IMG/VR virus record: IMGVR_UViG_3300027126_000252
Coordinates: 1 to 53,733 of that record
DNA length: 53,733 nt
From: a virus
Direction: 5' to 3' (one strand)
The notes under the pieces are model-generated. The model did not search any database. It had not been told where the DNA came from and saw nothing but the letters and a program-made list of their open reading frames with translations. Position numbers and translations under genes: made by a program. Numbering within the stretch: the first letter of the stretch is position 1; every line of letters begins with the position of its first letter. Below, piece after piece: positions 14,757 through 38,624 of the stretch.

Positions 14757-15113
14757 ATGAAGTATTTACCTATCCTATTAGTCCCTTGTCTTTTATATGC
14801 CCAAGAAGACCCCACTTTTGTTAAGGGTTCTACTAAAAAAGATGTCGCCATATATAATAGGGATAAAGATATTGAACGACTCGAATCAGAAATCACAACC
14901 CTTAAAAAAGAAGTCCTTGATCTTAAACTCGCTTTAAAAGATAAAGACCTCGTTATAGAAAAAGAAAAGACTTCGACCACCCTATGTCAATTTAAACTTA
15001 TAGAAACATCAAGTAAATTATCTAGCTGTGAATCAGGACAAACGGCACAAATTATATTAGGTAGTTTATCCTTTATAGGTTCCGGTGTTGCTAGTGTAGG
15101 TTGCCTTAAATAA
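14757..15113 (+). CDS. Small secreted coiled-coil protein with C-terminal hydrophobic segment
   Basis: A 118-residue protein. Residues 1-15 are a signal peptide (MKYLPILLVPCLLYA) with likely cleavage before QE; a Cys at position 11 is in a poor lipobox (VPC). Residues 36-75 are a charged coiled coil (DKDIERLESEITTLKKEV and following heptads). Residues 96-117 are hydrophobic and Gly/Ser-rich, ending in GCLK, and could span a membrane. Signal, periplasmic coiled coil and C-terminal membrane helix is the arrangement of a unimolecular spanin, which fuses inner and outer membranes at lysis, but the lipobox is weak and no endolysin or holin is adjacent. The gene is alone on the plus strand between two minus-strand operons and ends inside the 3' end of purA (8-base convergent overlap). 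A minus-strand frame on the same DNA (14696-14980) is rejected as a shadow. Confidence 0.55.
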   Translation: MKYLPILLVPCLLYAQEDPTFVKGSTKKDVAIYNRDKDIERLESEITTLKKEVLDLKLALKDKDLVIEKEKTSTTLCQFKLIETSSKLSSCESGQTAQIILGSLSFIGSGVASVGCLK

Positions 15114-16170
15114 ATGAAATACACCCTCTGTTTTCACCATAGGTGTACCCTATCTTACTAACACCCGTATATTCTTTAATCTTTAATAATAACTTGTTTA
15201 AGTTCTCAATATCACTCCCCCATAGATCAACATCCTCAAGTCCTTGTTCTGTTTTAATTTTAAGAACACCCACTTGTGTAGGAATATCTGTTTTAGTAAT
15301 AATAAGTGTATCTACACCATTTACTTGTACTGCTTCTTTAAGCATAGGTAAATCGAGCCAACCAATTTTTCTAGGTCTGCCTGTAGTAGCTCCATATTCT
15401 TTACCTATCTCTCTATATTTATTTACAACTGTTTCACTTTGAACTTCTTCAAAAGTACCTGTACCGACTTTAGTTTCATATACTTTAGCAATACCAATTA
15501 CTTCTGTTAAGTCTTTATGGCTTAATCTAGTAGAATAGAAAACAGAACCTATAGTAGTACAAGAAGATGTGACATTAGGATATTCTTCACCCCATATATC
15601 TAACCTATACCCTTGACACCCTTCGAGAATAATTTCTCTACCCTCTTCTAACATATCTCTTAGGTAAACCTCAGCATCACCAATAAAATATTGTAATTTA
15701 GCTTTTTGGTCAGGTGTAGCAAAGTGGTTTAACCATGTATTCATAGTAATACCATCACGAGCAATAAAATCTCTAAGAGCAGGTCCAATACCTTTAGCAG
15801 TAGTGCCTAATCTCCTTTGATATTTAGCTATATCATCATCAATATGCCATGACATGACGACAGGAGCATAAGAACTGACGATAAGAGAATTGGGTTGCAC
15901 ATTAAATTCTTCCATCTCTTTAAGGAGTTGGATAGGATCAACAACAACAGCTCTAGTGATAACATTGGTAGCATTAGGGTTTAAGACACCACTAGGTAAT
16001 AAATGAACAACGGATTTATTACCTTCTTTGTCATATATCGTATGTCCTGCATTAGCACCACCTTGATATCTGACAATCACAGGATTATTAGTAGTATGGC
16101 ATAGATCATCAACAACACGACCTTTACCCTCATCTCCATTTTGTAAGCCTAAAATAACTTTAACAGCCAT
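15106..16170 (-). CDS. purA: Adenylosuccinate synthetase (PurA family, archaeal/phage short type)
   Basis: A 354-residue enzyme of the PurA family, which joins IMP and aspartate with GTP to make adenylosuccinate, the first step to AMP. Seen: P-loop-like LQNGDEGKGR (residues 9-18) with the catalytic Asp at 13, catalytic His in NAGHT (43), GTTAKGIGP (122-130), EGCQG (183-187), the aspartate/IMP loop ATTGRPRKIGW (261-271) and TKTD (292-295), the guanine-recognition motif of GTP-using members. Bacterial PurA is about 430 residues; this length matches archaeal PurA and phage PurZ. PurZ, which makes the precursor of 2-aminoadenine (Z), replaces the catalytic Asp and in its ATP-using form lacks TKxD. 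Both are intact here, so PurA is favoured, although a GTP-using PurZ0-type enzyme is not excluded. No DatZ, MazZ or DpoZ gene is seen nearby. It is the last gene after the methyltransferases. Confidence 0.85.
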   Translation of the reverse strand: MAVKVILGLQNGDEGKGRVVDDLCHTTNNPVIVRYQGGANAGHTIYDKEGNKSVVHLLPSGVLNPNATNVITRAVVVDPIQLLKEMEEFNVQPNSLIVSSYAPVVMSWHIDDDIAKYQRRLGTTAKGIGPALRDFIARDGITMNTWLNHFATPDQKAKLQYFIGDAEVYLRDMLEEGREIILEGCQGYRLDIWGEEYPNVTSSCTTIGSVFYSTRLSHKDLTEVIGIAKVYETKVGTGTFEEVQSETVVNKYREIGKEYGATTGRPRKIGWLDLPMLKEAVQVNGVDTLIITKTDIPTQVGVLKIKTEQGLEDVDLWGSDIENLNKLLLKIKEYTGVSKIGYTYGENRGCISFI

Positions 16171-16195
16171 TCTGATCTCCTTTTATGTAATAGGC

Positions 16196-17203
16196 TTATA
16201 TACTATACAATTTAAAATTAGAATCTAGTTTAATCATTCTATCCCTAATTGTCTTTATAGATTCATCACCTATATCTACACCTATCCAGTCCCTATTTAA
16301 CTTCTGAGCCACAGCTAAAGTGGTTCCTGACCCACAAAAGAAGTCTGCCACTAAGTCTCCTTCGTTAGATGAAGCTTTAATGATTCTTTCTAGGAGAGTT
16401 TCAGGTTTTTGGGTAGGATATCCATTTCTCTCGCTAGATTTAGGATCAACTGCTTTTATATCCCATACTGAGTCAATAGTCTTACCATCCATTCTAAATA
16501 AAACATCACTACCACAAGGGTCTCGATGATTTTCTTTTTTGAATCTTCGTAAATATCCTAAGAATCTTGTATCTTGTGATGGGTAATTACTTCCCAGGAT
16601 CTCATTATTTTCGTTGAAATAATCTTTCCATCTAGTGTAGTCAACAGTTTCACCTATAACACCATCCTTTAATAAATTGAAATTATAAACTTTTGATTTG
16701 ACATAAAAAAGAATATAGTCATGTTTTCTAGGGAAGTATTCTTTTACTTGTCCTTGATATGTTTGATAGTGCCAAATTATTTCATTCCTAAAATTACTCT
16801 CTCCAAATATCTCATTCAGCATTAATCTTATATATATGTTAGTACGATAATCTACATGAACATAGATACTTCCTGTATCTTTTAATAACAAACTCATCAG
16901 ATACAATCTCTCATAGATAAACTGTAAATAATCATCTAAAGTGAATTTATCTGTATAGGCGAAATTACCATCTTTAGTTTTAAAATCAAGCCCAGTAAGG
17001 TAAGGTGGATCAATATAGATAAGGTCTATCTTACCTTTATATTGCCCTAAGAGGCTAACCATAGCATCTAGGTTATTACCTTTGATGAGTAAACCCTTAT
17101 TAGAAGGTGGGATTAGAGAATTAGACTTTATATCTTCTATTAATCTTAAATCTTTAGGAGATTCTAAATCAGGCACTACTTTATCTTTTATCTCAAATCT
17201 CAT
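16196..17203 (-). CDS. DNA adenine methyltransferase, beta class (copy 1)
   Basis: A 335-residue DNA methyltransferase. Motif IV is DPPY (residues 65-68, in [15 protein letters not shown]), motif I is FFCGSGTT (288-295), in the order IV, recognition segment, I, typical of beta-class enzymes such as type III Mod subunits and orphan N6-adenine methyltransferases. DPPY points to N6-methyladenine (or N4-cytosine). The segment between EIIW (141-144) and GYPTQKPE (261-268) is not conserved among the four tandem copies and is the likely target-recognition domain; here it is the longest, about 115 residues. The start overlaps the stop of the preceding copy by ATGA. No restriction endonuclease is adjacent, so the group is an orphan set acting on phage DNA to resist host restriction. 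It is the fourth of the quartet in transcription order. Confidence 0.85.
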
Positions 17204-18198
17204 TTAAGTTCCTTTATCTGAAAATTAGAATCCAGCTTAATCATTCTATCTCTAATAGTCTTTATAGATTCATCTCCTATATCTACACCTATCCAGTTTC
17301 TATTTAACTTTTGAGCAACGGAGATTGTTGTCCCTGACCCACAAAAGAAATCAGCTACTAAATCCCCTTCGTTAGAAGAAGCTTTAATGATTCTTTCTAG
17401 AAGAGCTTCAGGTTTTTGAGTAGGGTAACCTAATCTTTCTTTATTGCTAGAACCACCTAATATTTTTATATCATCCCACCAGTCATTTAAAGGTGGTTTA
17501 CCTCCACTAAATTCAATAGGTTGTAAATCAGATGGTAGCTTACCTGACTTTACTGCATTGTTGTATTTATCCCAATCAAATACTGTTGCCATCTTTTTAG
17601 ATAGATTTACATTATATCCTTTCCTTTTACCACTCTCAAAAGTCTTTAAAGAACCCTCAGTAGGATTCCCATATTGAACATTAAAAGTATTATTCTCCGA
17701 TTTTACATAGTAAAGAATATAATCATGTTTATTACAAAACCTTTTGATTTTTGAAGGCATCCCCCTGTAACACCATATAATCTCATTTCTAAAATTATTT
17801 TCCCCAAATATCTCATTTAAAATTAAGCGAAGATACATATTAGTCCGATAATCTACATGAACATAAATACTTCCAGTGTCTTTTAATAGCAGGTGCATTA
17901 CATATATTCTCTCATAGATAAACTGTAAATAATCACCTAAAGTGAATTTATCTGTATAAGCGAAATTGCCTTCTTTAGTTTTAAAATCAAGTCCAGTAAG
18001 ATAAGGTGGGTCTATGTAGATAAGGTCTATTTTCCCTTTGTATTGATCTAAGAGACTGACCATAGCATCGAGATTATTACCTTTAATAAGTAAACCTTTA
18101 TTTGTGTTCTCTTTACTAGACTTTATATCCTCTATTAAATCTAATTCTTTAGGTGATTCTAAATCAGGTACTACTTTATCTTTTATTTCAAATCTCAT
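17200..18198 (-). CDS. DNA adenine methyltransferase, beta class (copy 2)
   Basis: A 332-residue paralogue of its neighbours. The N-terminal framework ([43 protein letters not shown]) and the C-terminal framework ([37 protein letters not shown]) are almost the same as in the other copies at protein and DNA level. The middle segment, from [20 protein letters not shown] to [19 protein letters not shown], is its own and should give a different target sequence. In the segment [13 protein letters not shown] it reads TIS where the other copies read TLA, a conservative change. Both ends overlap neighbouring copies by four bases (ATGA), so the quartet is one translationally coupled unit. Predicted function: methylation of phage DNA at a site distinct from the other copies. 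Confidence 0.85.
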
Positions 18199-19115
18199 TT
18201 AAGTTCCTTTATCTGAAAATTAGAATCTAGATTAACCATCCTATCCTTGATGGTTTTTATGGACTCTTCACCCATATCTACCCCTACCCAGTCCCTATTT
18301 AACTTCTGAGCTACAGCTAAAGTCGTACCTGATCCACAAAAGAAGTCTGCCACTAAATCACCTTCGTTAGAAGAAGCTTTAATGATTCTTTCTAGGAGAG
18401 CTTCAGGCTTTTGAGTGGGATAACCTAAAAGTTCGTTTTTTAACCTTCCCACAGGTGTTATATCAAACCACCAATCTTCTAATATCTTACCTTTATTTTC
18501 TAATTCATCTAAAGAGACATTACTGTTTGAAGTTTTAAACCCCAACCCACCTCTCCCATGTAAACCTGATTTATGTGGGATTCTTTGAATATTAAATTGT
18601 GTATATTTAGTCTTTGCATAAAAGAAAATAGAGTCATGTTTCCTAGAAAAATAGTCTTTAGTATTTGAGGGTCCTGAGTAACACCATATAATCTCATTCC
18701 TAAAATTACTCTCTCCTAGTATCTCATCTAGTATCAATCTTATATATGGACTTGTTCTATAATCTACATGAACATAAATGCTCCCTGTGTCTTTTAATAA
18801 CAAGTGCATTACATATATTCTCTCATAAATAAACTGTAAATAGTCATCTAAAGTGAATTTGTCTGTATAAGCGAAATTACCATCTTTAGTTTTAAAATCA
18901 AGTCCAGTAAGATAAGGTGGATCAATATAAATAAGGTCTATTTTCCCTTTATACTCATTGAGTAGACTAACCATAACATCAAGGTTGTTGCCTTTAATAA
19001 GTAAACCTTTATTAGAAGGTGGTATTAGGGAATTAGACTTTATATCCTCTATTAATTCTAAATCTTTGGATGAATCAAGATTAGGAACTACTTTATCTTT
19101 TATCTCAAATCTCAT
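18195..19115 (-). CDS. DNA adenine methyltransferase, beta class (copy 3)
   Basis: A 306-residue paralogue with intact [11 protein letters not shown] and FFCGSGTT motifs. Its recognition segment is shorter than in copies 1 and 2 and starts CYSGPSNTKDYFSRKHDSI, ending DWWFDITPVGRLKNELLGYP. The WW(D/F)DI pattern before the GYPTQKPE motif resembles that of copy 2 ([10 protein letters not shown]), which suggests those two recognition domains share an origin or parts have been exchanged. ATGA overlaps join it to copies 2 and 4. All catalytic motifs are present, so it should be active. The exact methylated site cannot be read from sequence. Confidence 0.85.
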   Translation of the reverse strand: MRFEIKDKVVPNLDSSKDLELIEDIKSNSLIPPSNKGLLIKGNNLDVMVSLLNEYKGKIDLIYIDPPYLTGLDFKTKDGNFAYTDKFTLDDYLQFIYERIYVMHLLLKDTGSIYVHVDYRTSPYIRLILDEILGESNFRNEIIWCYSGPSNTKDYFSRKHDSIFFYAKTKYTQFNIQRIPHKSGLHGRGGLGFKTSNSNVSLDELENKGKILEDWWFDITPVGRLKNELLGYPTQKPEALLERIIKASSNEGDLVADFFCGSGTTLAVAQKLNRDWVGVDMGEESIKTIKDRMVNLDSNFQIKELK

Positions 19116-20011
19116 TTAATTTCCTTTATCTGAAAATTAGAGTCAAATTTAATCATTCTATCCCTAATTGTCTTTATAGATTCATCCCCCATATCTACCC
19201 CTATCCAGTCCCTATTTAGTTTTTGAGCTACAGCTAAAGTCGTGCCGGATCCACAGAAAAAATCAGCTATTAAATCACCTTCATTAGAAGAAGCTTTGAT
19301 AATTCTTTCCAATAAAGGTTCAGGCTTTTGAGTAGGATACCCGACCTTTTCTTTACTAAAACTATTTACTAAAATAGAATTTAGAATGTCCTCTTTATTA
19401 CAATTCCATGTATCTTCAATAGCAAAACCATTACCTGTAGGAATACCTTCCCCTCTTCTAACATAAGTGGGGGGGTATGGTATATATTCTTTATTAAAAA
19501 TATAGTTATCACTTTTAGTGTAGTATAAAATGTTGTCATGGTTTCTAACCCAGTTTTTTGCTACTGATTTATATCCAGAGACCCAACCAATTCTCCATAT
19601 AATTTCTCTTTGAAAGTTCCCTGATCCAAATATCTCATCCATTATGATTTTAATATATGAACTTGTTCTATAAATACTTCCCGTATCTTTTAATAAAAAA
19701 CTCATTAAATATAGTCTCTCATATATGAATTGTAAAAAACCATCTAAAGTGAATTTATCCGTATATGCAAAATTACCGTCTTTAGTTTTAAAGTCTAATC
19801 CTGTCATATAAGGTGGGTCTATATAAATAAGGTCTATTTTCCCTTTATACTGCCCTAAGAGACTGACCATAATATCGAGATTATTGCCTTTAATAAGTAA
19901 ACCTTTATTAGTAGGCGGAATTAGACAGTTGGATTCAATATCTTCTATTAACTCAATCTCTTTAGGTGAATCAAGATTAGGATGTGCTTTATTGTCCCAA
20001 GTAAAGAGCAT
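19112..20011 (-). CDS. DNA adenine methyltransferase, beta class (copy 4, internal deletion)
   Basis: A 299-residue paralogue and the first of the quartet to be translated. Motifs DPPY (in IDPPYMTGLDF) and FFCGSGTT are intact, but where the other copies read [11 protein letters not shown] this one reads GSIYRTS: five residues (VHVDY) are missing in frame. The DNA is consistent with a 15-base loss between two TTAT repeats. The missing piece is a conserved beta strand just after motif IV, so activity may be reduced or lost. The N-terminus (MLFTWDNKAHPNLDSPKE) also differs from the [11 protein letters not shown] of the others. Its recognition segment (RIGWVSGYKSVAKNWVRN onward, with THDN-like HDNILYY) is distinct. 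It follows the divergent control region shared with the GMP reductase gene. Confidence 0.8.
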   Translation of the reverse strand: MLFTWDNKAHPNLDSPKEIELIEDIESNCLIPPTNKGLLIKGNNLDIMVSLLGQYKGKIDLIYIDPPYMTGLDFKTKDGNFAYTDKFTLDGFLQFIYERLYLMSFLLKDTGSIYRTSSYIKIIMDEIFGSGNFQREIIWRIGWVSGYKSVAKNWVRNHDNILYYTKSDNYIFNKEYIPYPPTYVRRGEGIPTGNGFAIEDTWNCNKEDILNSILVNSFSKEKVGYPTQKPEPLLERIIKASSNEGDLIADFFCGSGTTLAVAQKLNRDWIGVDMGDESIKTIRDRMIKFDSNFQIKEIK

Positions 20012-20040
20012 GAAATAGTCCTTGTTAATATTACTTTTAT

Positions 20041-20077
20041 TGTATAGTATCTATGTTTTGTTTGCTAAAACTATACA
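20041..20077. promoter_or_regulatory. Perfect 8-bp inverted repeat in the methyltransferase/guaC divergent gap
   Basis: TGTATAGT at 20041-20048 and its exact reverse complement ACTATACA at 20070-20077 are separated by 21 bases in the 84-base gap between the methyltransferase operon and the divergent guaC-like gene. It sits where promoters of both genes should lie and could be an operator for a repressor controlling both sides. The region is AT-rich, so chance is possible. Confidence 0.4.
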
Positions 20078-20095
20078 CATAAATGAGAGATAAGA

Positions 20096-21082
20096 ATGAC
20101 TCTTTTAAAAACATTTAATGACTATTTACTTTCCCCACAATACTCAAGCATCGACTCAAGAGATCATATTGACCTATCTTCACAATTAAAAGATAAACAC
20201 ACTTTACCTATTATCTCTTCCCCTATGACTACTGTCACAGAAACTGATATGGCTCTCGCTATGGAATCTAAAGGTGGTTTAGGTATTATTCATAGATATA
20301 ACAGTATAACTGACCGTACCCATCTTTCTTTTAATGCTAATAAAGCCTGTGTTGCTTTTGGTTGTAATGAATTAGACAGTATAGATAAATTCATCCATGC
20401 AGGTATCACAACTTTTTGTTTAGATGTTGCACATGGTCATACTAAAATTGTAGGTGAGACCTTAAAAGAATTGAAAGCAAGACATAAAGAAATCTATGTG
20501 ATTGCAGGTAATGTAGCTACACAAGACGGGTATGAGTTTTTAATTGATCATGGTGCAGATGCAGTTCGTGTAGGTATCGGTGGGGGGTCTATTTGTACTA
20601 CAAGAATCCAAACAGGTCATGGTATTCCTACTTTAGCTAGTGTTTTTGATTGTGCTAAATCTACATATGGGAAACCTATTATTGCTGATGGAGGAATTAA
20701 GACCACAGGAGATATGGTGAAGTGTTTAGCTGCAGGTGCAGATTTTGTTATGTTAGGGTCATATTTAGCAGGTACAGATGAAGCACCAGGCAGAGTACAT
20801 ACAGATGAACATGGGAATAAGTATAAGAAGTATGTGGGTATGGCAAGTAAAGAAGCACAATCTCAATGGAGGGGTACGGTAAGATCAGTAGAAGGTGTAA
20901 GTCATCAAGTGAATTACAAAGGATCAGTGTTAGCTATATTAGATGAGATAGCTATTAACATTAAGAGTGGTTTAAGCTATAGTGGAGCTAGAAATATTAG
21001 AGAATTACAATTAACAGCTAAGTGGGTAGAGATTAGTAATCAGGCATATGCTGAGAGTCAAGCACATATCTTTAATGGTTAG
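20096..21082 (+). CDS. guaC: GMP reductase / IMP dehydrogenase family enzyme (GMP reductase favoured)
   Basis: A 328-residue TIM-barrel enzyme. The catalytic loop is GIGGGSICTTRIQTGHG with the thioimidate Cys at 167 and Thr at 169; substrate-binding IADGGI (196-201) and MLGSYLAG (219-226) follow. There is no CBS domain, and the length fits GMP reductase (325-350 residues) rather than IMP dehydrogenase (about 490). The flap reads KYVGMASKEAQ...SVEGVSH, similar to the YFGSASE and YGMSSE flaps of GMP reductases, and lacks the RGMGS signature of IMP dehydrogenase. One doubt: the Glu after the GMSS motif of GMP reductases is shifted by one residue here (GMASKE). GMP reductase turns GMP into IMP with NADPH, feeding PurA, which is encoded on the other side of the methyltransferases. 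It ends in a four-base convergent overlap with the next gene. Confidence 0.65.
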   Translation: MTLLKTFNDYLLSPQYSSIDSRDHIDLSSQLKDKHTLPIISSPMTTVTETDMALAMESKGGLGIIHRYNSITDRTHLSFNANKACVAFGCNELDSIDKFIHAGITTFCLDVAHGHTKIVGETLKELKARHKEIYVIAGNVATQDGYEFLIDHGADAVRVGIGGGSICTTRIQTGHGIPTLASVFDCAKSTYGKPIIADGGIKTTGDMVKCLAAGADFVMLGSYLAGTDEAPGRVHTDEHGNKYKKYVGMASKEAQSQWRGTVRSVEGVSHQVNYKGSVLAILDEIAINIKSGLSYSGARNIRELQLTAKWVEISNQAYAESQAHIFNG

Positions 21083-25902: not shown

Positions 25903-26594
25903 AACTGTGCTTTCTTAAAATCTAAACTTAAATTAGGTTTCTTTTTAGTTTGTGCAGTTGCAAAGGAATCAGCACCATTTACATTATAGATTTTCCACCC
26001 ATTTAAGGTATCTTCTAATGCACTAGACCATGCTAAATGACCCTCTTGTAAAGGCTTATTAGGTTCTTCTACTATCCATGTAGCTTTATTTAAATGCTGT
26101 CTTAATTCAATCGTTTCAATTAAAACCTCACTTGTAGCTGAATTTCTAGCCCTCTTTACACCTAATCTCACAATTAACAAGTCAGGTGCTTCAGCTAAAT
26201 CTTCTAATCCCCTTACATTAATATCTCTAATAAGATCAGGGTCTACTTTATTATCATCACTGACATTAGATAACCATGCACTAATTAGGGTAGCATCAGA
26301 TACTACTCGAATATTAAGAGTGGGGTTTCTCTCACTTAGAATAGCTGTTCTTAAATGAATAGCTAATTCTGTTTGACTTGCTATTAATCTAAGGTTTTCT
26401 TTCATCTTACCTATCATAGGACTTTTACGGTCTACAGGTACAGATGATAGGTCTTTCCATGCTTTTTCACATTGTAGTTTTAAAGCTTCTTTTAACATAC
26501 AAATACAAGGAACAGTCACAGGACTTCCCATATATACTTCTTCTGTTAAAGTAAACCCATATCCTTTACACTTAGGACAATTTTTATCTGCCAT
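25899..26594 (-). CDS. Helicase-loader-like protein with degenerate AAA+ fold and zinc knuckle
   Basis: The preferred start is ATG at 26594 (MADKNCPK), since GAGG lies upstream of it; an ATG at 26606 abuts GAGG directly and would add four residues. The protein has 231 residues. N-terminal CPKCKGYG and PCIC (Cys 6, 9, 30, 32) form a DnaJ-like zinc knuckle. The C-terminal half (EAPDLLIVRLGVKRARNS and then EVLIETIELRQHLNKATWIV) resembles the end of DnaC/DnaI-type AAA+ helicase loaders (DLLIIDDLG, then L-x-x-L-I-x-x-R), but the Walker B Asp pair is replaced by Arg-Leu and no Walker A is seen. The gene overlaps the helicase by ATGA, so the likely role is a non-ATPase loader or helicase-binding protein. 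Confidence in the fold is moderate. Confidence 0.5.
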   Translation of the reverse strand: MADKNCPKCKGYGFTLTEEVYMGSPVTVPCICMLKEALKLQCEKAWKDLSSVPVDRKSPMIGKMKENLRLIASQTELAIHLRTAILSERNPTLNIRVVSDATLISAWLSNVSDDNKVDPDLIRDINVRGLEDLAEAPDLLIVRLGVKRARNSATSEVLIETIELRQHLNKATWIVEEPNKPLQEGHLAWSSALEDTLNGWKIYNVNGADSFATAQTKKKPNLSLDFKKAQL

Positions 26595-29529
26595 TTTCTT
26601 TAGCATCCTCTACTAGATCATTAAAGATGTCTTTAAGTTCATTATCAGAAACACCTATTATCTTATCGGATTCTTCATCATTTTTGAGCCTTTTTCCTAA
26701 AACATTTTCTATTAAATCCATTTTATTATGTAAGGCTTTCATAACACGATCATCTACTGTCTTAGGACATACTAAATGATAACAATATACACGATCATGA
26801 ATACTACCGATACGGATCATTCTACCTATAATCTGTAAATAATCACCTGCACTCCAGGGACTATCATAAAAGATTGTTGCTTTAGCTAACTGTAAATTAA
26901 CACCTTCAGCTGCAGCCATTGTAATCAACACCACTCTTACATCAGATTTTTCATCTTGAAATGACTCTTGAGATTTCTTTCTCTCATCATCTTTTTCCCC
27001 ACCTGTAATTCTAACACACTTAATACCTTTAGCAGTAAGTTCCCTATCTAAGATATCAATCATCTTTCTAAAACGAGAGAAGATAATAACCTTTTCACCA
27101 TCAAGTTCTTCTTCGAGAAGTTCCATAAGAATTTCTAATTTACCACTATCACCTTTAACATCTACAAGTTCAGGATGGTTTACAATTTGTTGGCAATACA
27201 TAACAGCAGTAAGTTTAGTAACTTCTTTTTCTGTCATTTCACCTGTTGTAGGGTCATACTTTTCTAAGATACCACTTAAAGCTTCTTTATACTTAGAGAT
27301 TTGAACATCAGATAAAGGAGCTTCAATTCTTTTAGTAGTTAAAGGAGGTAATTCTTGGGCAACTTCATGTTTAGGTCTACCAATAAAATAGGGGTCAATT
27401 TTAATTCTGAAAGCTTCAATATCAGATTTTCTATGACCTACAACGAATTTAATTCTTTTTCTACCGATTTGTTTATCTACACAGATACAGTAATTAGACA
27501 TAAAGACATTTTTACTAGGCATAAGACCTGGTACGGTGACTCTATAAATTGCCCATGCTTCCATAAGTCTATTTTTAATAATAGTAGCAGACAAAGACCA
27601 TACTTTTTGAGCAGCACCTGAGAGGTGGGCACAGACTTGGTGAACTTGGGTAGTTTCATTTTTAAAGGCTGTTGCTTCATCAAAGATTTGAACATGATCT
27701 TTTAAATTTTGTAGTGTTTCAAAATCCATACAAGCAGTTCTATAACCCATAATAAGAACTTTAAGACCTGTATGGGCGAAGTAGTCATCATAGACCTTTT
27801 GTCTTTTCTTTTTATCACCACTTACAACAAAGCATTTAACACCATTAGTGAATTTATCAAATTCAGATGCCCATTGGTTTAATGCTGATTTAGTAGTCAT
27901 AATGACAGCTGATGTTTCGGGGTATTTATCCCATAGGTAGCTGAGGGCAGAAATTGCTTGTAAAGTGTTATGACTTGTAATTCCATTACCTACAAAAGAA
28001 TGTTCTGGGTGATCAACTTCTATATCAAACACTTCTTTTTCATCATGTGAAATAGAAACAATAGGATCATAGAAATAGTGATTATCAATCAAAGAATTTA
28101 CATCATTACTTTCTAGGTCTAAAGAAAGATAAATCTCTTTTAACTTTTTTAAGAAATCGAAAGTAGGGTTTCTTCTATTTTGTCGAATATGACCAAAAGT
28201 ATTATAAAAAGCAGTTCCGTATTTAGTAGATATACCTTGTCCTTTAAACCCATGTAAACCAACTTCGGAATAAATCTTGGTTCTAATTTCTTCGATATAT
28301 CCCTTAGAGAATGGAATGACATCAAAATTTGCATTCTTAGGAGTGTTTCTAAATCTCTCTATTTCATTAATCTTTCTTTTTGAAACAAGACCTATGGAAT
28401 CAAGGAAGAGAATGGCATTTTGACCATGTAAACCTAAATCCCAATAATCATTGGGATTATCTTTAACCTTTTTAATCTTTCTAATAGAAACAATCCCAAA
28501 AGAAAGTAAAGCTACCTGTATTTGTTTAAGCATTTTTTCAGAAGCCGATGAAACATGAATAGATCCATTTTTTACATAGGATTCACTATCTATGAAAGTT
28601 CTTAGGAAAGAAGCTAAAATTTGTTTTTTTGACTCTAGAACACAACTAGGAATCTCTTTGTCTTTAGATAGGCAACGAGGAATACCTAAAGATAATAAGA
28701 AACGATAAATATAGACACTAGAGATAGTATAGCCCCCATTAATATATCGAATAGGATATTCAAATAAAAAGTGAATTAGATATTCTAAATGTTCACACAC
28801 TTCGGGATTTAATTTTTTGTCTTGAGTGATACAAAAAAATTTCTCCTCAGTATGATTAAACCACCCTTCAGCTAAAAGGTATCCTAAGAACATAGCTAGT
28901 TCAGAATTTAAAGAACTAGGTGTTTTATATACTTTTTTATTGGGGTGTCCTTCTCCAGTATAAGAGATGTCAGTTTCTTTCCCAAAATCTTTGATAGAAC
29001 GGTCAAGGCAAACAAAATCCCCCTCTTTAAGATCGGAAAGTTTAACCCAATCTTCTTTACCATCGGATTGACGGACTAACACGGGATGAACTTGAGAACC
29101 TTCAATTTCATATCCTAAACGAGTTTTAATTTTGATAGTAGGTTTAACACCACCATAGTAAAAACTTTTAATAGGTCTCTCTTCACCCCTAACGATAACA
29201 TTCACAGGTTCGGATAAAGATGCAAAGGTATCTTGAATTTCAACTCCGGGGTTTAGACTTGAAATAGGTACTAATCCCTTATCAGTATTTACAAGAGTAT
29301 CTCCGACAACACACTTGCCAAGTCCCGTATCATCGCCGAGAACGAATCTAGGCATGGCTAAAAGGTGCATAATACCTTGAACTTGATAGTTTCTTAGTGT
29401 TAAGGGTCTACCGTTGGGCATAGTAGTTCTTAGAATTTTACTTGGGGGAGCTTTTAATTCTGTTCTTACTCGAATCTCTTTTAGCTTTGCTATTGTCTGT
29501 TGTAGCTTAGGGTCGTCTAAATAACTCAT
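26584..29529 (-). CDS. SNF2-type DNA helicase/ATPase interrupted by an intein
   Basis: A 981-residue precursor. Residues 1-72 and 522-981 are an SNF2-like superfamily 2 ATPase: Q-motif region TLRNYQVQGIMHLLAMP, Walker A DDTGLGK followed after the intein by TLQAI, Walker B FDEATAF (616-622), and the C-terminal motifs KVIIFSRF, AAAEGVNLQLA and QIIGRMIRIGS. Residues 73-521 (449 residues) are a self-splicing intein inserted between Lys and Thr of Walker A, giving a mature enzyme of about 532 residues. Such ATPases remodel DNA-protein complexes or help recombination and replication. A sigma70-like promoter lies just upstream and this is the first gene of the replication operon. The 3' end overlaps the loader-like gene. 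Confidence 0.9.
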   Translation of the reverse strand: MSYLDDPKLQQTIAKLKEIRVRTELKAPPSKILRTTMPNGRPLTLRNYQVQGIMHLLAMPRFVLGDDTGLGKCVVGDTLVNTDKGLVPISSLNPGVEIQDTFASLSEPVNVIVRGEERPIKSFYYGGVKPTIKIKTRLGYEIEGSQVHPVLVRQSDGKEDWVKLSDLKEGDFVCLDRSIKDFGKETDISYTGEGHPNKKVYKTPSSLNSELAMFLGYLLAEGWFNHTEEKFFCITQDKKLNPEVCEHLEYLIHFLFEYPIRYINGGYTISSVYIYRFLLSLGIPRCLSKDKEIPSCVLESKKQILASFLRTFIDSESYVKNGSIHVSSASEKMLKQIQVALLSFGIVSIRKIKKVKDNPNDYWDLGLHGQNAILFLDSIGLVSKRKINEIERFRNTPKNANFDVIPFSKGYIEEIRTKIYSEVGLHGFKGQGISTKYGTAFYNTFGHIRQNRRNPTFDFLKKLKEIYLSLDLESNDVNSLIDNHYFYDPIVSISHDEKEVFDIEVDHPEHSFVGNGITSHNTLQAISALSYLWDKYPETSAVIMTTKSALNQWASEFDKFTNGVKCFVVSGDKKKRQKVYDDYFAHTGLKVLIMGYRTACMDFETLQNLKDHVQIFDEATAFKNETTQVHQVCAHLSGAAQKVWSLSATIIKNRLMEAWAIYRVTVPGLMPSKNVFMSNYCICVDKQIGRKRIKFVVGHRKSDIEAFRIKIDPYFIGRPKHEVAQELPPLTTKRIEAPLSDVQISKYKEALSGILEKYDPTTGEMTEKEVTKLTAVMYCQQIVNHPELVDVKGDSGKLEILMELLEEELDGEKVIIFSRFRKMIDILDRELTAKGIKCVRITGGEKDDERKKSQESFQDEKSDVRVVLITMAAAEGVNLQLAKATIFYDSPWSAGDYLQIIGRMIRIGSIHDRVYCYHLVCPKTVDDRVMKALHNKMDLIENVLGKRLKNDEESDKIIGVSDNELKDIFNDLVEDAKENGR
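27967..29313 (-). mobile_element. Intein with LAGLIDADG homing endonuclease
   Basis: The 449-residue element starts with Cys (CVVGDTLV, splicing block A) and ends with HSFVGNGITSHN, followed by Thr as the +1 residue. SQVHPVLV is a block B-like segment with His. Two LAGLIDADG motifs are LGYLLAEGW and FLRTFIDSES, with acidic residues Glu and Asp in the catalytic positions, so the homing endonuclease may be active. A later basic part resembles a DNA-binding helix-turn-helix. Insertion within the Walker A codon pair is a typical conserved site for inteins. Confidence 0.9.
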
Positions 29530-36992: not shown

Positions 36993-37595
36993 ATGTCTTA
37001 TATACAACCCGTTATCTATTCCCCTAATGAAAACCCTAAAGGTATTAAACCCGTTGTCTTCGACATCATAGCTCCAGATGGTCAAACATCTCTACTATCC
37101 GATGGTCAAAATGATTATCGTATGATACTCCATGCTAATATGAATGATATTAGTATTTCCTATGATAAATCAATAGAACGAACTCAAACTATGGGAGGAT
37201 GGATTGAAACCCATTGGTCAGATAAACCTGTTACCATTACCCTAGCTATCGCCACAGGTGGATTTATCCATAAGGATAGAGGTCTTGTTGCTACTTCAGG
37301 ACCTGTGCCTAAAGTCGGTGGTATAGATCAAGGTCATACTAGACGAGATACCATAGGCTACCAACAATACCTAGACTTACTAGCCCTATTCCATAATAAC
37401 GGTGCTTTCTATGATCGTAAAGGTGAAATTGTTGTTCATGGTCGTATTAAAATGTCTTTTGATGGCGGTGTGTGGTTCGGTTGGTTTCAAAACTTTTCAG
37501 TAGCTGATACTGCTGATGCCCCCCATCTCTTTAAATGCTCTCTCGGCTTCCAAGTCGAAAGAGAAGTTCATGGGATAAGAACACAAGGATTATAA
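36993..37595 (+). CDS. Tail hub/baseplate protein, shorter paralogue
   Basis: A 200-residue protein immediately after the tape measure. It shares a core with the next gene: a DISISYDK-like strand (NDISISYDKSIERTQTMG), a W..(D/E)..P.(I/L)(T/E)L strand, the R-R-D-(T/S)-x-x-Y-(Q/R)-Q motif (TRRDTIGYQQYLDLLALF), then a N-N-G-A-x-x-D-R-x-G loop. These features are typical of T4 gp53/gp48-like or LysM-flanked hub proteins in jumbo phages that close the tube end. The shared core implies a gene duplication. It should be a structural protein of the baseplate hub. The exact family name is not certain. Confidence 0.55.
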   Translation: MSYIQPVIYSPNENPKGIKPVVFDIIAPDGQTSLLSDGQNDYRMILHANMNDISISYDKSIERTQTMGGWIETHWSDKPVTITLAIATGGFIHKDRGLVATSGPVPKVGGIDQGHTRRDTIGYQQYLDLLALFHNNGAFYDRKGEIVVHGRIKMSFDGGVWFGWFQNFSVADTADAPHLFKCSLGFQVEREVHGIRTQGL

Positions 37596-37598
37596 TTT

Positions 37599-38624
37599 AT
37601 GGCTACTACTCCAGACTATTTACAAACTAGACCCTTTGTCGAATTACCCACAGGTGAACTCTTTGTATTATATCCTGATGATGACATTGGTACTTACCCT
37701 ATTGATACTACAAACCCTTTATTAAGAGGATATGCCCCATTTGTCTTATATATTGAACCACCTAACATCATTCAACCTCTAAGTAAAAAGGACACTGTGC
37801 TAGATAGGGAGGGTGTTAATAAAAGCCAACCTTTCTCTTCCCCTCTTAGAAATAGGTCTTACTTAAAGACAAACCCTAATTCTTTAAGTGGTGCTACTCT
37901 CAGTAGTATTGCAGGACCTCCTACATCTGTCAGAACAGAAGCTGACAGAGATCAAACACTCCCATCTTATTTAAATGACAGACTTGTAGCTTTAGATATT
38001 CTTGACCAATACAAACAATTAAAAGATTTACCTGTCATTACTTTTCTCATAAACCCTCAAAGCATGAATATCTCTTATACTAAAATCCAAGCATACCAAG
38101 ACCAAACTAGAATGGGTTATATTTTTCAAGCATGGGGTGAAGATATTCCTACCTTAGAATTATCTTGTAAAGTCGGTAGTTATCTATCTGGACATACAGA
38201 TCCTGGTAAAGCTAGAGGTTTACACCATACAAGTAGAAGAGATAGTGCGGCTTATAGACAACTTATGAATATTCTTGCCCTATTTAAAAATGGTGCTACT
38301 ATTAGAGATAGGTTAGGCAGAACTGAAATGATCCATCAAGTAGGATACCATGTTATAGAATATGATGGTGTTCGATATACAGGACATATTAAATCTTTTA
38401 ATTGGGGTATATCACAAGAACTCTCACATGGGGGACTGGATTTTAACATGGGTTTTGAAATACTCCAAATGGATTATTTTGAAACTAGGGATGTAACAAA
38501 TGTAGTTAATGCTCAAAATGCCCGTTCTTTCCTCAACCAAGAATCAGGTTTTAATCAATTAGTTGCAAGTGGCTCTACCTCACTAGTAAATAGTGGGCTA
38601 CTAACTAAACTAGGAGTTAGCTAA
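37599..38624 (+). CDS. Tail hub/baseplate protein, longer paralogue
   Basis: A 341-residue protein. The C-terminal 190 residues repeat the core of the preceding gene: MNISYTKIQAYQDQTRMG, PTLELSCKVGSYL, TSRRDSAAYRQLMNILALF, then NGATIRDRLGRTEM and GVRYTGHIKSFNWG. The N-terminal 130 residues are extra, Pro/Ser/Thr-rich and probably extended (YLQTRPFVELPTGELFVLYP). It follows its paralogue by three bases and precedes the large hub gene, so all are made together. Role: hub or tube-initiator component of the baseplate. Confidence 0.55.
   Translation: MATTPDYLQTRPFVELPTGELFVLYPDDDIGTYPIDTTNPLLRGYAPFVLYIEPPNIIQPLSKKDTVLDREGVNKSQPFSSPLRNRSYLKTNPNSLSGATLSSIAGPPTSVRTEADRDQTLPSYLNDRLVALDILDQYKQLKDLPVITFLINPQSMNISYTKIQAYQDQTRMGYIFQAWGEDIPTLELSCKVGSYLSGHTDPGKARGLHHTSRRDSAAYRQLMNILALFKNGATIRDRLGRTEMIHQVGYHVIEYDGVRYTGHIKSFNWGISQELSHGGLDFNMGFEILQMDYFETRDVTNVVNAQNARSFLNQESGFNQLVASGSTSLVNSGLLTKLGVS

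Follow-up and report, generated by a model that had tools for sequence, protein, structure and literature searches.

The IMG/VR virus record IMGVR_UViG_3300027126_000252, analysed over its whole length of 53,733 bases (the window), carries an array of four methyltransferase (MTase) genes at positions 16196-20011. The four open reading frames (ORFs) belong to the PF01555 beta-class adenine MTases and lie head to tail on the minus strand, in the transcription order M4-M3-M2-M1. On one side they are flanked by a PurA-like gene, on the other by a GMP reductase-family gene, which is divergent (Table 1). All four pass the Pfam N6_N4_Mtase cut-off of 26.7 bits, with scores of 156-195 bits. The DPPY and FFCGSGTT motifs are invariant across the copies; DPPY precedes the FxGxG motif and the target recognition domain (TRD) lies between them. 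A DPPY motif points to N6-adenine as the target, and the products are therefore described here as predicted N6-methyladenine (m6A) MTases.

Table 1 Features of the MTase array and of its neighbourhood. Positions are those of the window unless another contig is named.
Feature	Position	Strand	Basis or remark
M4, first gene, predicted beta-class m6A MTase, 299 aa	19112..20011	-	ORF call, Pfam, motifs; in-frame 5-residue deletion
M3, second gene, predicted beta-class m6A MTase, 306 aa	18195..19115	-	ORF call, Pfam, AlphaFold model
M2, third gene, predicted beta-class m6A MTase, 332 aa	17200..18198	-	ORF call, Pfam
M1, last gene, predicted beta-class m6A MTase, 335 aa	16196..17203	-	ORF call, Pfam; C-terminal tail unlike the others
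M4 TRD, 85 aa	19340..19594	-	45-71% identical to a widespread bacterial and archaeal MTase family, some members beside type III Res-like genes
M3 TRD, 87 aa	18423..18683	-	51-54% identical to the Limosilactobacillus fermentum plasmid Mod-type MTase
M2 TRD, 115 aa	17428..17772	-	No clear outside relative; best matches about 30-39%, mostly partial
M1 TRD, 117 aa	16421..16771	-	45% identical along 115 aa to the type III-like Mod L155 (747 aa); 54% to viral contig L162
M4/M3 junction	19107..19130	-	AAAGGA ribosome-binding site in the last M4 codons, then ATGA overlap
M3/M2 junction	18190..18213	-	Same design as the M4/M3 junction
M2/M1 junction	17195..17218	-	Same design as the M4/M3 junction
15-nt in-frame deletion point in M4	19669..19670	-	Conserved core strand between DPPY and TRD
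PurA-like adenylosuccinate synthetase	15106..16170	-	25 nt downstream of M1, same strand
GMP reductase/IMPDH-family gene	20096..21082	+	Divergent from M4; gene present in 4 of 8 related records searched
Distant beta-class MTases at the GMP reductase gene of sister phages	L037:8163-9110; L038:2314-3249		21-25% identity

The copies share their ends and differ in the middle. Protein identity among M1-M4 is 79-91% from NKGLLIK to EIIW (the N flank) and 88-95% from YPTQKP on (the C flank), against 30-39% in the middle, where M2 and M3 are 39% identical and a short H-D-x-I stretch is common to all four. The borders are abrupt, identity dropping sharply after EIIW and rising sharply at GYPTQKP. At the nucleotide level the N flanks are 74.5-85.0% and the C flanks 80.6-84.2% identical, but the middles only 45.3-52.7%. 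With blastn both flanks match in every pair (210-509 nt at 78-88%); in M1-M3 and M2-M3 the match extends into the middle by about 70 nt, and the remaining middle is unmatched. This similarity of the flanks is far beyond chance.

An earlier note on this DNA, made from the letters alone, had described four tandem MTase ORFs with ATGA overlaps, which the ORF calls and Pfam bear out, and had proposed an alignment of the four genes, which delivers the sharp identity borders around the variable middles. Other parts of its description need adjusting. The genes were called head to tail and complete: the tandem stands, but M4 is not ordinarily intact (it carries the five-residue deletion), and the genes run from right to left with M4 first. 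The flanking motifs are indeed nearly the same, except that the first ten or so residues of M4 are unlike those of the other three copies. The middles differ in length and sequence as claimed, their lengths being 117, 115, 87 and 85 residues rather than 60-115.

The AAAGGA site of each inner junction lies within the final codons of the gene upstream, with its end 6 nt ahead of the following ATG. In 81-nt junction windows, M4/M3 shares 70 of 81 nt with each of the other two junctions, and M3/M2 and M2/M1 share 76 of 81. The C-terminal tail of M1 differs and lacks the embedded ribosome-binding site. With an ATGA overlap and a ribosome-binding site inside the preceding gene, the layout is fit for, and suggests, coupled translation of the array. 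The 4-nt overlap alone is ordinary in the window, since seven other same-strand neighbour pairs have one (ORFs of at least 80 aa). A promoter and terminator scan was uninformative (21 promoter-like sites, 28.8 expected). No tandem repeats were reported in 16000-20200, and simple sequence repeats of the phase-variable modA type were not found there.

An array of this kind could arise in assembly, by alleles of several strains being placed end to end. The window is a metagenome contig, and its nearest relative, G002, stops inside the GMP reductase gene adjoining the array and does not reach the array position. Against this, the copies differ at 15-25% of their flank nucleotides, the three inner junctions are precise and conserved, and similar arrays occur in other contigs. 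We give an artefact hardly any credence.

Relatives of the TRDs were sought outside the window. For M4, the loci collected comprise the best 80 of 156 genome relatives plus four viral loci. An MTase ORF matching the M4 TRD is present in 83 of these 84 (L133 gave no ORF match), at 43-71% identity with a median of 59%; the loci were picked by TRD patterns covering about 18 of 85 residues, and the high TRD identity comes partly from this selection. Median identity in the flanks is 42% (N) and 57% (C). The M4 TRD reaches 71% identity with bacterial enzymes whose N flanks are 25-53% identical. Four records of the plasmid collection also match, among them MTases of Mycoplasmopsis cynos (49% over the whole TRD) and Mammaliicoccus (54% over half of it). 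Both M4-type plasmid MTases are followed by a gene for a type III restriction (Res) subunit (PADLOC REase_III, E 4e-95 in L044 and 5e-234 in L045). A TRD-only search gave no match in phages.

The closest match to the M3 TRD, with 51% identity along its full 87 residues, is a modification (Mod)-type enzyme on a Limosilactobacillus fermentum plasmid, the N flank of which is 46% and the C flank 67% identical. A helicase gene follows it, matching type III Res weakly (8e-13) and PbeA at 7e-13 in PADLOC. Weaker matches to the M3 TRD were found in an Acutalibacteraceae phage (37.5%), in a second plasmid record, and in 1/28 and 14/338 genomes, the genome search having covered one phylum and 28 other genomes. 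For M1, where the genome search covered one phylum, that of a Bacteroidales metagenome-assembled genome, a single one of 395 genomes matches (45% over 115 residues). The enzyme concerned, L155, has 747 aa and a PADLOC match to type III MTases (1e-113); its flanks are 40% (N) and 69% (C) identical to those of M1. A Res-like ORF (1e-16) is found near it, with one gene between. The viral contig L162 matches the M1 TRD at 54% (with anchors, 127 aa); TRD-only searches gave no match in phages or plasmids. On these comparisons the TRDs of M1 and M4 are clearly homologous to those of type III Mods, and that of M3 resembles a Mod-type enzyme best scored as type II.

The M2 TRD matches 7 of 398 genomes of one phylum at 32-39%, mostly over part of its length, and plasmid matches are weak; none was found in phages, nor in 395 and 398 genomes of two other phyla in searches run without a positive control. 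Three M2-matching genomes also match M3, and M2 may accordingly be remotely related to the M3 class.

The framework and the TRDs have different histories in phylogenetic trees. In a tree of the flanks of 37 MTases, M1-M4 form one clade (support 100/98), with L093 as the nearest outside row. In the TRD tree, M1 joins L155 (100/95), M3 the L. fermentum enzyme (99/92) and M4 the family of the Pseudofulvimonas enzyme L051 (98/86). A single TRD clade for M1-M4 costs 80 log units and is rejected by the approximately unbiased (AU) test (p 1.46e-5, 37 rows). A single clade for M1, M3 and M4 costs 115 log units and is likewise rejected (AU p 9.86e-6) in a fresh alignment of 33 rows, from which M2, Phaeobacter, M. 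lentus and Spirosoma had been taken out as long branches; long branches remain in both TRD trees. The 37 rows were chosen by hand and consist of 14 of the 84 M4-type loci, L155, 9 of the 21 loci L134-L154, the four window proteins and nine others. With the framework a single clade and the single TRD clade rejected, the trees show that TRDs of three or more ancestries were brought onto a single framework, those of M1, M3 and M4 being independent of each other.

These trees also bear on the reading that the copies have one specificity and that their middles are only fast-evolving structural parts. Such parts might share the H-D-x-I stretch found in all four middles and the 39% identity of the M2 and M3 middles, but the AU tests reject a single TRD clade, and the M4 TRD is far closer to some bacterial enzymes (up to 71%) than are their N flanks (25-53%). 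We hold this reading to be very unlikely. The earlier note had itself offered conserved parts of one specificity as the outcome that would overturn its view, and as to the ancestry of M1, M3 and M4 the AU tests refute that outcome. Its proposal of duplication followed by TRD replacement, and not just drift, is supported by the trees and AU tests for M1, M3 and M4; an outside origin of the M2 TRD lacks such support. The search for the recognition segments elsewhere that it called for has the same outcome, with bacterial or plasmid relatives for M1, M3 and M4 and weak, mostly partial matches for M2.

Close relatives of the framework were not found: peptide patterns gave one distant locus each in IMG/VR, genome contigs gave nothing, an exact junction pattern gave nothing in a search from which records near the window may be missing, and all 629 matching records of the phage collection are less than 60% identical.

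The copies are not equally intact, and an assumption to that effect was rejected because of the deletion in M4. The deletion removes five core-strand residues, among them a near-invariant Asp that is kept in 30 of 31 aligned family members and missing only in M4. AlphaFold models were made for M3 and M4. Their overall scores are alike (mean pLDDT 74.8 and 75.0, respectively; pTM 0.77 for both), and a MTase fold is still threaded for M4 despite the deletion. Confidence in M4 is lower near the deletion and around DPPY (81 vs 94 in M3 at residues 111-120; 82 vs 93 at 61-70). A fold search, which covered the M3 model only, returned beta-class MTases at Z 20-26 (M.BceJIV, M.MboIIA, CcrM, EcoP15I Mod and M.RsrI), with the top values for M.BceJIV (26.5), CcrM (25.2) and EcoP15I Mod (25.2). 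M4 may be impaired by its deletion, and we rather doubt that it is an active MTase; three active specificities thus seem more certain than four.

Between the copies, flank dS is 0.71-1.62 and dN/dS 0.08-0.15, and the flanks of M4 have equally low dN/dS against its siblings (0.08-0.15). By this measure the flanks of every copy are under purifying selection. By these dS and dN/dS values the array is an old one with maintained flanks, and any loss of function in M4 would be recent.

The repeated framework could instead make the array mainly a recombination store, in which direct repeats shuffle TRDs and only some copies are active at once. Framework repeats of 210-509 nt at 78-88% identity would serve such shuffling, the TRDs are of separate ancestries, M4 carries a deletion, and in an array elsewhere (L205, below) a copy has been duplicated and its middle changed. 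No gene conversion among M1-M4 was detected, however: the clustering of two-two site patterns is not significant (p 0.11; per codon 0.44). The copies are old by their flank dS, simple repeats for phase switching were not found, and all copies are probably translated, given the ribosome-binding sites at the inner junctions. We consider a store improbable, if less so than a single specificity.

The reading we favour, and think probable on the comparisons above, is that of an orphan MTase array in which one catalytic framework carries TRDs of different origin and which serves restriction evasion. The enzymes would be short, Mod-like N6-adenine MTases, expressed together in infection, and each active copy would methylate adenine in its own motif on the phage DNA. 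The array would cover three, perhaps four, m6A specificities. These would match specificities of bacterial type III and related restriction-modification (R-M) enzymes, and the modified phage genome would resist those R-M systems in the current or the next host, their Res partners failing to cut. M1-M3 would have come about by duplication and TRD replacement. M4 probably has the oldest layout, because it is the first of the four to branch off in the framework tree and because L093, the outside framework closest to them, has an M4-type TRD.

The array enzymes do not appear to be type III Mod subunits, despite the Mod-type TRDs of M1 and M4, because they lack the C-terminal half and no Res was seen. 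A full-length Mod has about 550-650 aa or more and a C-terminal domain; M1-M4 have 299-335 aa, and the Mod-type enzymes compared with them have 546 (M. cynos), 571 (M. lentus), 609 (L. fermentum) and 747 aa (L155). The genes adjoining the array are PurA-like and GMP reductase-like, not Res. The lack of a restriction partner that had been claimed holds for the 14 proteins covered by PADLOC (the four MTases and ten others), none of which matches REase_III, in a window that is only a fragment; for its remaining proteins the scans were limited to Pfam, PHROGs or NCBIfam, and some were in no scan.

Several observations weigh against an evasion array with captured TRDs. A Res-like ORF is present in only 25 of the 83 M4-type loci, in flanks of at most 6 kb that are often cut by contig ends, and three short relatives with an M4-type TRD (L090, L093 and L106) have none in the stretch examined. 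In PADLOC the L. fermentum enzyme fits a type II model best, not a type III one. The M2 TRD is without a clear outside relative. The C flanks resemble outside enzymes (57-69%) more than the N flanks do (40-46%), and the mosaic therefore rests on the contrast between siblings and on the trees. In M4, core residues present in 30 of 31 rows are absent and the model is less confident around the site. The missing signal of gene conversion counts here too.

Methylation could also serve the phage itself, in replication timing, packaging or gene expression, or by marking its DNA against a phage nuclease. There is precedent in phage P1, where Dmt is required for pac-site methylation according to a review (PMC12707154). 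An internal role would likewise fit the absence of an R-M partner among the 14 scanned proteins and the occurrence of some outside relatives as single genes with no Res-like neighbour in the stretch examined. A fixed internal role is hard to square with several diverged TRDs that are common to Mod-Res loci. Nor do the sister records, all of them fragments, point to an internal role that is conserved: the array was not found in them, and in two the GMP reductase gene adjoins another MTase. We regard it as unlikely, though as the most serious competitor of an evasion array.

Similar arrays were sought in 90 viral loci, which include the best 80 of 386 relatives and were picked by MTase patterns; the counts are thus not a rate for phages. 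At least two MTases of this kind are present in 25 of the 90, and copies of one framework in three, representing two independent cases, as L185 and L186 are 99.99% identical over 9,884 nt. L185/L186 hold three SPPY-type copies with two variable segments each; two copies overlap by 4 nt and the third lies about 4 kb away. One distant beta-class MTase is also present in the same locus (L186:1-7365). L205 holds two copies of a roughly 500-aa type with a 4-nt overlap, the N flank being 82%, the middle 33% and the C flank 89% identical. It is a 3.2-kb contig that starts inside the first copy (L205:1-3159), and may be a longer array broken by assembly. As in the window, the copies in both cases have conserved ends and different middles, and two neighbours overlap by 4 nt; unlike the window, they belong to other MTase families and number three and two. 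In the other multi-MTase loci, pairs are 24-45% identical. The earlier note knew of no coupled quartet of this kind; given these arrays and the parallels below, its novelty is reduced, and the four copies are the largest same-framework set in the 90 loci sampled.

Exchange of TRDs on a constant framework is known from the modA alleles of Neisseria and Haemophilus, in which the recognition domain is exchanged en bloc and several of these domains are more than 50% identical to Mods of unrelated species (PMC3311624). modA shares with the array a Mod framework with a highly variable recognition domain; it differs in consisting of alleles of one full-length, phase-variable locus across strains, where the window has four half-length genes in one phage. 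The array also differs from modA in that no Res was seen (in a window fragment) and no simple repeat was found.

PMC12707154 describes phage MTases as a protective modification, and names temperate phages of Bacillus, SPbeta among them, in which a single C5-MTase has several TRDs. Modular TRDs and several specificities per phage against host restriction would be common to both, the latter by conjecture for the array. The SPbeta type is one polypeptide acting on cytosine-C5, whereas the array consists of separate genes for DPPY adenine MTases with one TRD each. The array enzymes match PF01555, not PF00145, and each has a single variable segment. In jumbo phages, more than one methylase type may be present (PMC7824862). 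Flavobacterium phage tooticki6-1 has several MTases close together (three PF01555, one PF00145), like the array, but its PF01555 members are 25-47% identical and do not form one framework with swapped TRDs.

Outside phages, the short MTases L090, L093 and L106 (328-339 aa) share the M4-type TRD; each is a single gene in its stretch, on contigs of uncultured bacteria, with no array. They are a candidate conserved orphan MTase of these bacteria. The gene beside them looks like what we take to be a phosphate permease.

A tandem array of separate adenine MTase genes with TRDs of mixed ancestry was not found in the open-licence literature, where absence proves little. Modular TRD exchange (modA) and multi-TRD phage C5 enzymes are already known; in the array, the TRDs of different ancestry are on separate genes of one framework. 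That two further groups of viral contigs, with MTases of other families, have the same layout suggests repeated use, and we tentatively raise the idea, without holding it likely, that tandem same-framework arrays with exchangeable TRDs are a recurrent phage device in several MTase families. Were this true, such arrays would be a specificity repertoire built by duplication and by TRD capture from host R-M enzymes, and would record the restriction systems met by a phage lineage, readable to predict hosts. The layout would directly link the methylation of a phage's own DNA with the pool of TRDs in type III-like systems of bacteria. It offers a simple test of whether phages collect host specificities, by comparing the motif of each gene with those of R-M systems sharing its TRD.

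The window itself has a match to a baseplate wedge protein and a weak match to a sheath initiator, under its cut-off. Its relatives include contigs of up to 316 kb (helicase identity 81-97% in the best segment) and a 485-kb uncultured phage (47% identity). From these matches and relatives, we infer a huge tailed phage, of whose genome the window is one fragment.

Downstream of M1, the PurA-like gene is preceded by its own ribosome-binding site, AAAAGGAG, and is probably on one transcript with M1. A link of the array to 2-aminoadenine (Z) DNA was considered and dropped: with 134 bits the PurA-like protein stays below the PurZ cut-off of 300, and it keeps a GDEGKG motif, at which PurZ enzymes differ. 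It is under the curated PurA cut-offs too (276 vs 402 bits). Together, the PurA-like and GMP reductase-family genes perhaps provide a route from GMP over IMP to AMP, feeding an AT-rich genome. Both genes are also present in G003 and G006, about 30 kb apart there.

The sister records G001-G007 are all fragments. A search of them with a hidden Markov model (HMM) of the framework did not find the array and gave only distant MTases, in G003, G004 and G007. G003 and G004 have a GMP reductase gene that is 94% identical, and the gene after it encodes another beta-class MTase, of only 21-25% identity. The GMP reductase gene of G006 is 81% identical, and the framework HMM found no MTase there. The spot beside this gene therefore seems to gain, lose and exchange MTases.

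The sole PADLOC match among the ten non-MTase proteins scanned is a helicase (26584-29529, minus strand). Its gene has an insert of about 440 residues (residues about 75-512), which is absent from six relatives (L010-L014 and L017, three of which look like one sequence), where residue 74 is joined to 513. L009 and LR745208 have related sequence at the same place, and the insert is probably an intein. Elsewhere in the window, the neighbouring plus-strand genes 36993-37595 and 37599-38624 cross-match each other's counterparts in relatives at 26-30% identity, and appear to be old tandem paralogues.

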